A stretch of DNA of 64,000 nucleotides from Roseovarius azorensis. GTDB lineage: Bacteria; Pseudomonadota; Alphaproteobacteria; Rhodobacterales; Rhodobacteraceae. The position numbers were made by a program, and so were the translations under genes. The stretch lies in NCBI RefSeq assembly GCF_900109455.1, contig NZ_FOAG01000010.1, positions 1-64,000 on the forward strand, given 5' to 3'. A model generated the notes under the pieces. That model worked only from the letters and a program-made list of their open reading frames with translations. It did not search any database and was not told where the DNA came from. Shown piece by piece: positions 59,677-62,921 of this stretch; positions within the stretch are counted from its first letter, which is position 1, and each line of letters starts with the position of its first letter.

Positions 59677-60585
59677 TCACTCCAGAAACGTGCCGCGTGG
59701 CAGGGCCATGCCGCGCAGGAACTCGCCCGCATCCTGCGCCGCGCGGCCCGCGCGTTGCAAGCGTAAAAGCCGCACCGCCCCCGTGCTGCAAGCCACGGTG
59801 AGTGCATCGTCCAGAACCTCGCCCGGCGCTCCCCGCCCCTCGGCCAGACTGGATCCGAGCAGCTTTATCCGCTCGCCCCTCACCTCACACCACGCGCCGG
59901 GAAAGGGTGAAAGCCCCCGGATCAGCCGATCCACATCTTCGGCCGGACGGCTCCACTGCACCCGCGCCTCGGCCTTGTCGATCTTGGTCGCATAGGTGAC
60001 ACCCGTCCGGGCCTGCGGTTCTGCGCGCAACTCCGGCAGCCGCGACAGCGCCTCGACGATCAGCCGCGCTCCCATCTCCGACAGCCGGTCATGCAGTTGC
60101 CCCGTCGTTTCCTGTGCGCCGATTGCCAGGGTCTCGCGCAACAGCACCGGCCCGGTGTCCAGCCCCGCATCCATCCGCATGATGCACACGCCCGTCTCGC
60201 GATCCCCGGCCATGATCGCGCGGTGGATGGGCGCCGCGCCGCGCCAGCGCGGCAATAGGCTGGCGTGGATGTTCAGACAGCCCTGTTTGGGCGCATCCAG
60301 CACCGCCTGCGGCAGAATCAGCCCATAGGCCACCACCACCGCGACATCCGCCGCAAGCGCCGCGAACTCCGCCTGCTCGTCTGCGCCTTTCAGACTGACC
60401 GGATGGCGCACCGGCAGACCCAGCGCCATGGCCCGCGCCTCAACCGGGCAGGCGCGCGCCTTTTGTCCGCGCCCGGCAGGGCGCGGCGGCTGACAGTAGA
60501 CCGCCGCAATCTCATGCCCCGCCGCCACCAGCGCATCAAGCACCGGCACCGAAAACTCTGGCGTCCCCATGAATACGATACGCAT
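59677..60585 (-). CDS. fmt: Methionyl-tRNA formyltransferase
   Basis: A 302-residue Fmt, which formylates initiator Met-tRNA using 10-formyltetrahydrofolate. Signature: [15 protein letters not shown], the catalytic [20 protein letters not shown] (Asn and His), and [11 protein letters not shown]; the C-terminal tRNA-binding domain follows. The ATG at 60585 (MRIVFMG) is preferred. It is directly after the deformylase genes, a usual pairing. Confidence 0.97.
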
Positions 60586-60606
60586 GTCCACTCCCGTAGG
60601 GCGGGG

Positions 60607-61110
60607 TTACACCGCCAGTTTGCGCGCCCGCCGCAACAGCATGTCCCGCTTAACCTTGCTCAGCCGGTCAAAATACATCCGCCCCTGCAAATGGTCGATC
60701 TGATGCTGCACACTCGTCGCCCAGAGTCCGACAAAATCGCGTTCCTCGGTCTCGCCCGCATCGTTGAGAAACCGCACCGTCACCGCGCGCGGCCGCTCGA
60801 TCACCGCCGAGACGCCGGGCAGGCAGGGGCTCGCCTCTTCATGCGCGCGCCTCTGCACGCTTGCATGCAGGATCACCGGATTGGCCATGCGCACCACCTG
60901 TTCGCGCACCTCACTGGCATTAATCACCGCCAGCGCCTGTATCTCACCGATCTGGGGCGCGGCGAGACCCACACCGGGCATCGCCTCCATGACCTCGATT
61001 ATTTCGGTCCATATGCGCAGCACCGCCTCGTCAACCGTCGCGACCGGCGCAGCCACCATCCTGAGCCGCCTGTCCGGCCAGCGCAGGCAGGGACGCGCCA
61101 CGGTGCTCAC
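60607..61110 (-). CDS. Peptide deformylase paralog lacking the catalytic Glu
   Basis: A 167-residue deformylase-family protein. Motif I is intact (GVGLAAPQ, 46-53), but motif II is SPCLPG (94-99) instead of EGCLS, and motif III is HQIDH (136-140) instead of HExxH: codon CAG (Gln137) replaces the catalytic Glu. The metal-binding His136, His140 and Cys96 are present. It is therefore likely not a normal deformylase, perhaps a pseudoenzyme or one with a new role. Its stop lies 21 bases before fmt; its start overlaps def by 4 bases. Confidence 0.92.
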   Translation of the reverse strand: MSTVARPCLRWPDRRLRMVAAPVATVDEAVLRIWTEIIEVMEAMPGVGLAAPQIGEIQALAVINASEVREQVVRMANPVILHASVQRRAHEEASPCLPGVSAVIERPRAVTVRFLNDAGETEERDFVGLWATSVQHQIDHLQGRMYFDRLSKVKRDMLLRRARKLAV

Positions 61111-61625
61111 CCCCGCGCCAGTTCGCGCTTGAGCTTCTGCATGCGCCGCGTGATCAACTGGCGCTTGATCGCGCTCAGGTAATCGATGAACAGCTTGCCG
61201 TCGAGATGGTCGATCTCATGCTGCACGCAGGTCGCCCACAGCCCGCCAAACCCCTCGCGATGCTCCTTGCCATCCAGCCCCAGCCAGCGCACCTCGATCT
61301 CTCTGGGTCGGGTGATCTCGGCATATTCTTCGGGGATTGAAAGGCACCCTTCCTCATAGACATTGGTCTCTTCCGAAACCGCCACGATCTCGGGGTTGAG
61401 CATCACCATCGGGCGCGGTGTGGCGCCTTCCTCCTTGACGCAATCCAGAACGATCAGCCGCTCCAGCACCCCCACCTGCGGTGCGGCAAGACCGATGCCG
61501 GGCGCATCATACATCGTTTCCAGCATGTCCCCGGCAAGGTTGCGCAACCCGTCCGTCACGTCGGCCACGGGCGTGCAGACCTTTTTCAGGCGCGGATCGG
61601 GATGGATCAGGATAGGGCGTTTCAT
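61107..61625 (-). CDS. def: Peptide deformylase
   Basis: A 172-residue active-type peptide deformylase removing formyl from new proteins. All motifs are intact: GIGLAAPQ, EEGCLSIPE and QHEIDHLDG. It overlaps the next paralog's start by 4 bases, so def-(paralog)-fmt is one unit. Confidence 0.97.
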   Translation of the reverse strand: MKRPILIHPDPRLKKVCTPVADVTDGLRNLAGDMLETMYDAPGIGLAAPQVGVLERLIVLDCVKEEGATPRPMVMLNPEIVAVSEETNVYEEGCLSIPEEYAEITRPREIEVRWLGLDGKEHREGFGGLWATCVQHEIDHLDGKLFIDYLSAIKRQLITRRMQKLKRELARG

Positions 61626-61721: not shown

Positions 61722-62921
61722 ATGAATTCCAGCAAGGCCGTCATCAACGTCAACTTTGACGAGCCCATCAACCGGTTCGGCACCAATTCGAATAAATGGG
61801 ACGAAATGGCCGCCATAACCGGCGTCGCCGACCCGGACGGTATCGCGATGTGGGTGGCGGATATGGATTTTAGCGCGGCGGATGTGCTGCAAGAGGCAAC
61901 CACGGGCCTTCTGGACAAGGCGAATTACGGGTATTTCACCGGCGAAGGCGATATGAAGGACGCGGTCGCCTGGTGGATGCGCGAGCGGCACGGCTGGGCC
62001 GCCGACCCACAGGCGATGTTTTCGACCTTTGGCCTCGGCAACGGCATCGGCCTCTGCCTGCAAAGCTATACCGAGCCCGGCGACGAGGTGATCATCTTTA
62101 CCCCCGTCTACCACGAATTCATCGGCAAGATTCGCAGGGCCGGACGCATCGTCAGGGAGAGCCCGCTCAGGATCGGGAACGGGGTCTATCACATGGATCT
62201 CGACGCGCTTGAGGCCTCGCTCAGCGGTAGGGAAAAGGTGGTGATCTTCTGTTCGCCGCACAACCCCGCCGGCCGGGTATGGGCACCCGAGGAACTGCAC
62301 GCCCTGGCCGCGTTCTGCGCCTGCCACGATCTCTTGCTGATGTCCGACGAAATTCATCACGATCTTGTCTTTCCCGGCCATACTCATGTCCCGTTCCCGA
62401 TCGCCGCACCGGATGTGATCGACCGGCTGATCATGCTGACCTCGGCCTCTAAGACCTTCAACATCGCCGGGTCGCGCCTTGGCTGTGTCACAATCCCCGA
62501 CGAGCGCCTGCGCCAGCGTTTCGCCGCCACGATGCGCGCCCTCGACATCAAGCCGAATCTGCTCGGTGTCGTTCTGACCCAGGCCGCCTACAGCCCGCGC
62601 GGCGCGGCATGGGTGGACGCGCTGGTGCGGTATCTGGACGGCAACCGGCAAATCTTTGTTGACGGTATTTCCGGGATTCCGGGGCTGACAGCCATGCCGA
62701 TGCAATCGACCTATCTGGGCTGGGTCGATTTCGCCAATACCGGGATGGAGATGGAAGAGGTCATCCGGCGCGTCAAGACCGACGCCCGCATCGCTCCCAG
62801 CATCGGCGCAGATTTTGGCAGCGGAGGTGAGACTTTCCTGCGCTTCAACCTCGGCACTCAGCGCGCGCAGGTAACCAAAGCGATGGAACGGCTGCAAGCG
62901 GCCTTCGGGGACCTGCAATAA
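61722..62921 (+). CDS. PatB-like C-S lyase/aminotransferase
   Basis: A 399-residue fold-type I PLP enzyme of the MalY/PatB group. The PLP lysine is in SASKTFNIAGSRLG; the N-terminal segment IAMWVADMDF is typical. Such enzymes cleave cystathionine or related thioethers, giving pyruvate, ammonia and a thiol. The ATG at 61722 follows AGGAGAG. It stands alone and is divergent from def. Substrate unknown. Confidence 0.92.
   Translation: MNSSKAVINVNFDEPINRFGTNSNKWDEMAAITGVADPDGIAMWVADMDFSAADVLQEATTGLLDKANYGYFTGEGDMKDAVAWWMRERHGWAADPQAMFSTFGLGNGIGLCLQSYTEPGDEVIIFTPVYHEFIGKIRRAGRIVRESPLRIGNGVYHMDLDALEASLSGREKVVIFCSPHNPAGRVWAPEELHALAAFCACHDLLLMSDEIHHDLVFPGHTHVPFPIAAPDVIDRLIMLTSASKTFNIAGSRLGCVTIPDERLRQRFAATMRALDIKPNLLGVVLTQAAYSPRGAAWVDALVRYLDGNRQIFVDGISGIPGLTAMPMQSTYLGWVDFANTGMEMEEVIRRVKTDARIAPSIGADFGSGGETFLRFNLGTQRAQVTKAMERLQAAFGDLQ

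Follow-up and report, generated by a model that had tools for sequence, protein, structure and literature searches.

Between def and fmt, most Rhodobacteraceae carry a paralog of peptide deformylase in which almost always the same residues have taken the place of those of the catalytic site, so that it probably acts in regulation and not in catalysis. Judging from the residues replaced, this paralog is very likely without deformylase activity, and since the parts that it conserves are the binding parts (the fold, motif I, the Glu of motif II, and a basic C-terminal helix), we favor a ribosome-docked modulator, with a probability of roughly 0.45 that it competes with Def or holds N-formyl-Met at the ribosome. 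Deformylase is an essential enzyme and an antibiotic target, and the retention of a second, strictly conserved and probably dead copy next to the live gene points to an unrecognized step of control over formyl removal.

The gene was analyzed in a window of 64,000 nucleotides from Roseovarius azorensis, which is the whole stretch of DNA considered here (table 1). The open reading frame put forward in the original prediction, which gave no strand, is real and lies on the minus strand together with def and fmt; as had been claimed, it sits tightly between an intact def and fmt, the end of def overlapping the start of the paralog (a GTG codon) by four bases. The PF01327 profile matches the paralog over its full length (119.1 bits for a cut-off of 22.8, profile positions 3–155 of 156), and the R. 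azorensis genome holds only two such matches at E ≤ 0.001, namely the paralog and the adjacent def, which are 40% identical. The paralog also passes the NCBI equivalog model TIGR00079 (117 bits, cut-off 103.95), so that this model would name the pseudoenzyme an active deformylase, which calls for caution in annotation as the protein is probably dead.

Table 1. Coordinates of the pseudo-deformylase gene, of its sequence features, and of its two neighbors in the window.
Feature	Position	Strand	Remarks
Pseudo-deformylase CDS (def paralog)	60607..61110	minus	167 aa; Gln for catalytic Glu, Ser for ligand Cys
Motif I, codons 46–53 (GVGLAAPQ)	60952..60975	minus	intact
Motif II region, codons 92–97 (E-A-S-P-C-L)	60820..60837	minus	EGCLSI in active def
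Ser94 codon	60829–60831	minus	position of the ligand Cys
Cys96 codon	60823–60825	minus	non-ligand position
Codon 133 (Ser)	60712..60714	minus	E. coli Cys129 position; Ser in 246/246 relatives
Motif III, codons 136–140 (H-Q-I-D-H)	60691..60705	minus	
Gln137 codon (CAG)	60700–60702	minus	
Basic C-terminal helix, codons 152–166	60613..60657	minus	corresponds to the helix by which E. coli deformylase docks on the ribosome
Active-type def (EGCLS and HEIDH)	61107..61625	minus	4-base overlap with paralog (61107–61110)
fmt, methionyl-tRNA formyltransferase	59677..60591	minus	listed start 15 bases past the paralog stop

Neither motif II (EGCLS) nor motif III (HExxH) of active deformylases is found in the paralog, which has EASPC and HQIDH in their place. 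The codons of motif III read CAT-CAG-ATC-GAC-CAT (H136 Q137 I138 D139 H140), so that the Gln announced at codon 137 instead of the catalytic Glu is directly legible in the sequence, as is the announced SPCLPG at residues 94–99. The original prediction had further stated that three metal ligands remain, of which His136 and His140 are indeed kept. Cys96, on the other hand, must be rejected as a conserved metal ligand, because ungapped alignments with solved PDB deformylases and with the neighboring def pair the ligand Cys with Ser94 of the paralog, because the distance from residue 94 to the first His of motif III is 42 residues in both deformylase-like proteins of the window as well as in 245 of the 246 relatives where both motifs could be located (the remaining one having 47), and because Cys96 itself aligns with a non-ligand Ser of active enzymes (E. 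coli Ser92), a position occupied by Asn in 224, Cys in 22, and His in 1 of 247 relatives. Numbers such as Leu91, Arg97, and Cys129 below are those of E. coli deformylase.

The relatives in question come from a survey of 295 Rhodobacteraceae genomes representing 294 genera, 287 of which have some match and 8 none; the copies were taken from the survey matches, and the weaker genomes were searched a second time for them. A readable and undecayed paralog was found in 248 of the 295 genomes, and 247 of these copies were aligned (one cut at a contig end), the 248th, in genome G216, being read separately. The catalytic Glu position is Gln in 246/246 aligned copies, which answers in the affirmative the original question whether Q137 is conserved in the Rhodobacterales, and rules out the sequencing error or lone change that had been named as its refutation. 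The ligand Cys position is Ser in 246 of 247 copies (Pro in the remaining one), the Leu91 position is Pro in 247/247, and the Cys129 position is Ser in 246/246; as for the SPCLPG string, the pattern SP(N/C)LPG is what the family conserves, SPCLPG itself being one variant thereof. Both His of motif III are kept in the 246 aligned full-length copies, and the Glu of motif II, the Gln of motif I, and, within GxGxAAxQ, Gly46, Gly48, and Gln53 are each present in 247/247. The aligned domain contains no Cys at all in 60 of the 247 copies. At the same loci, def has the ligand Cys in 245/245 and the catalytic Glu in all 244 sequences with a letter there. A previous set of 77 loci, gathered by a motif-pattern search among records whose titles name Rhodobacteraceae or known member genera and thereby biased, gave the same picture, and the closest named relatives in that set belong to Roseovarius.

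According to the relevant passages of a study on Salmonella deformylase (PMC7683392), Cys90 is a metal ligand needed for activity, overexpressed C90S does not relieve zinc stress, and C130S costs the enzyme about half its activity; we infer that Cys130 of Salmonella corresponds to Cys129 of E. coli. Combined with the Gln that stands for Glu, the two Ser changes make canonical deformylase activity very unlikely, with the caution, found in passages of PMC12690207, that a lost motif alone is no proof of inactivity.

The order def–(def2)–paralog–fmt on one strand holds at 247/247 loci as far as the fetched DNA goes, where def2 designates a middle deformylase gene between def and the paralog (e.g., at loci L004, L011, and L382) that is absent from the genome of the window. 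There are 118 loci without def2 and 118 with it, while the other 11 lack an end or have a split fmt. The paralog is directly followed by fmt at 240 loci, fmt not being found within the fetched stretch at the other 7, and another deformylase gene adjoins the paralog at all 247; three of them (G222, G285, and G256) show def2 but no def, in genomes that each have three matches in the survey. The median gaps between domain ends are −2 bases from def to paralog and 5 bases from paralog to fmt. The three genes probably share one transcript. The motifs of def2 are intact in nearly all cases (Cys in 128/129, Glu in 127/129), and its basic C-terminal helix is lost, with a mean tail charge of −0.8. When mapped on a tree that was built from def and fmt of 254 genomes and includes 17 of the 44 genomes lacking the paralog, paralog presence needs 10 changes versus 66 for def2, meaning that the dead paralog is held more firmly than the spare copy with intact motifs. 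On this same 254-genome tree, def2 is present in 119/237 paralog-bearing versus 3/17 paralog-lacking genomes, and independent pairs gave no signal that def2 depends on the paralog.

The gene is nonetheless dispensable, as it is missing from 44 of the 295 genomes (the 8 without any match included), 17 of which have a completeness of 95% or more and no more than 100 contigs. Three further genomes have a defective or altered copy: that of G098 is truncated where a contig ends, that of G224 is strongly diverged (QHQANH) beside an intact def, and that of G157 is broken together with def2. Regarding its spread beyond the family, a paralog profile (A1) built from 55 sequences was applied to the order sample, where 119 of the 121 genomes, all of them Rhodobacteraceae, gave 248 bits or more, the next matches reaching at most 185 bits. 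In the class sample, none of the 380 genomes outside Rhodobacteraceae exceeded 180 bits (20 had no match); 25 of the 380 were read, and every one has EGCLS and QHExDH. The phylum sample partly coincides with the class sample, and the scores of its 284 other genomes never rise above 174 bits. Among the order, class, and phylum samples searched, the paralog was thus seen only in Rhodobacteraceae, as far as profile matches tell, although such searches could have overlooked a highly divergent copy in other groups. Mobile origins were also considered and rejected: none of 116 matching phage records reaches 60% identity, and of 882 plasmid records a single one goes as high as 65%; it is from a 1.58-Mb replicon of Pseudorhodobacter turbinis.

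We inferred the phylogeny of 117 deformylases (30 paralogs, 31 def, 30 def2, 25 sequences from other families, and E. coli) with the motif columns omitted. The paralogs form a single clade with 100/100 support, in a tree whose bootstrap is not fully settled, on a stem of 1.48 changes per site; the mean root-to-tip distance inside the group is 1.2 for the paralog, 2.5 for def2, and 0.7 for def. These lengths fit a rapid change that happened once and was followed by constraint. The paralog branches outside the group formed by def and def2, in which a sequence of one other family is nested as well (99/96), so that the duplication may predate the Rhodobacteraceae, unless the long stem is misplaced. 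In pairwise Nei–Gojobori estimates restricted to dS under 2, the median dN/dS was 0.18 in the paralog and 0.163 in def, each calculated from 90 of the 91 pairs among 14 loci, and 0.173 in fmt, calculated from all 78 pairs among 13 loci. The suggestion that the gene is a pseudoenzyme kept by selection is thus upheld by the same replacements throughout the family, by a dN/dS like that of the active neighbor, and by a fixed place in the operon, and as judged from these sequence comparisons, the paralog is a pseudoenzyme in the usual sense of a protein with lost catalytic residues under purifying selection.

The fold appears to be that of a deformylase. The AlphaFold2 model of the paralog (pLDDT 94.2, pTM 0.89) includes the C-terminal helix and superimposes on E. 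coli deformylase entries over about residues 4–167, helix included, with Z scores of about 26–27 and 1.2–1.5 Å (24.4 for 3k6l); its match to 5j46 has a Z score of 27.3, and structure matches were also sought with Foldseek. With regard to the helix, deformylase is described as docking at uL22 through it (passages of PMC9099147), and the ribosome contacts of the E. coli enzyme are given as L149, K150, R153, K157, K160, and R163 (passages of PMC12690207). The counterparts of K150, K157, and K160 are basic in 245, 246, and 246 of the 247 paralogs, respectively. The counterpart of R153 is Met in 218/247 paralogs, as it is in 200/244 def of the family, and that of R163 is Arg in 68/247, another 68 ending before that position, so that docking may differ from that of E. 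coli. The mean net charge of the tail is +6.3 in the paralog and +8.0 in def, compared with +6 for the E. coli sequence. From this conservation, we lean toward the view that the paralog docks on the ribosome.

The scenario that we favor starts from an old duplicate of a def-type gene, in which the catalytic Glu, the ligand Cys, and the adjoining Leu were lost once, to Gln, Ser, and Pro, when the Rhodobacteraceae arose or earlier, the altered state being retained ever since between def and fmt. The basic C-terminal helix would dock the protein at the ribosomal tunnel exit, as that of active deformylase does, and N-terminal processing would then be modulated, either because the paralog occupies the site instead of Def or because it holds the emerging N-formyl-Met without hydrolyzing it. 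A more specific version, which we regard as unlikely, is a family-wide, ribosome-docked reader of N-formyl-methionine, which would bind the formylated N-terminus of emerging chains in a pocket free of catalytic metal, leave it unhydrolyzed, and keep Def from deformylating selected proteins such as membrane proteins; if true, it would explain the clustered deformylase genes of Rhodobacterales. The chief rival to a ribosome-docked modulator is a dead partner acting off the ribosome, co-made from the gene cluster with Def and Fmt, which would bind either of them and tune its activity or stability. Pseudoenzymes often regulate their active paralogs, and the fixed place between def and fmt, with its near-zero gaps, and the retained fold would suit such a partner; we nevertheless consider it rather unlikely, as it leaves the conserved ribosome-contact residues unexplained and as, to our knowledge, bacterial type 1 deformylases work as monomers.

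The strict conservation of a site that is not drifting, with Ser94, Pro95, Gln137, and both His nearly invariant, could also point to an enzyme of another kind, in which the rebuilt set of Ser94, Asn/Cys96, Gln137, His136, and His140 would act on N-formyl or other substrates with a metal or none. However, no nucleophile or base is obvious, position 96 alternates between Asn, Cys, and His, and the C90S and C130S changes abolish or weaken the Salmonella enzyme in the passages cited above (PMC7683392), so that we find such an enzyme quite improbable. The metal-binding pseudoenzyme of the original prediction, which would serve as a metal store or sensor through its two remaining His, can invoke their presence in all 246 aligned full-length copies, but it loses its main support because the thiolate ligand is replaced by Ser in 246/247 copies and 60 of the 247 domains are devoid of Cys, and is in our view very unlikely. 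Still weaker is the decoy proposed alongside it, which would soak up natural deformylase inhibitors and thereby spare Def: such inhibitors occur in the sea (passages of PMC12690207), and motif I and the fold are intact, but the site for the metal is changed, and at the place of Arg97 188 of the 247 paralogs have Ser and 20 have Trp. As described in the same passages, Arg97 holds actinonin in Def1 of Vibrio cholerae, Tyr is the reduced-susceptibility residue of its Def2, and Arg97→Tyr lowers actinonin susceptibility in this species (PMC12690207). The def of the family itself has Tyr (189) or Phe (55) in 244 sequences at this position, which further counts against the decoy and suggests that actinonin-like inhibitors may be less effective throughout the family. 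The def of the window has Tyr there (EGCLSIPEEY). Finally, a decaying pseudogene or a sequencing error deserves practically no weight: the broken copy of G157 and the strongly diverged one of G224 can be cited in its favor, but for the family it is refuted by identical replacements in 246/246 copies and by the median dN/dS of 0.18.

The paralog shares with E. coli Def (type 1B) its fold (35% identity), motif I, the Glu of motif II, both His of motif III, and the basic C-terminal helix, and differs from it in that the catalytic Glu is replaced by Gln, the ligand Cys by Ser, Leu91 by Pro, Ser92 by Asn or Cys, and Cys129 by Ser. It is also reminiscent of the type 3 deformylases, inactive accessory copies of Staphylococcus aureus and Streptococcus pneumoniae (Margolis 2000, 2001, as cited in passages of PMC12690207), in that a motif-substituted accessory copy coexists in one genome with an active one. 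However, type 3 proteins are substituted in motifs I and II according to the description in those passages, whereas the paralog has motif I intact and motifs II and III changed, and, unlike them, it bears the helix of type 1 and sits in the def–fmt cluster. Its locus is the same cluster as the one already reported for Rhodobacterales in passages of PMC12690207 (Lamberioux et al. 2025), where 104 of the 145 species with clustered deformylase genes are Rhodobacterales, 98.1% of the surveyed Rhodobacterales have a deformylase cluster, 62.5% with three genes, and the rationale of this cluster is called elusive. The abstract, two sections, and further passages of this source make no mention of an fmt-proximal member lacking the catalytic Glu and the Cys ligand, and no prior description of a dead Rhodobacteraceae deformylase was found in the open-licence literature. 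The cluster being known, what is new here is a pseudo-deformylase fixed across a whole family inside it, through which this so far unexplained arrangement becomes directly testable. Next to the def operon of the window and divergent from it, positions 61722–62921 of the plus strand encode a PatB-type C-S lyase (TIGR04350, 350.9 bits for a cut-off of 340).
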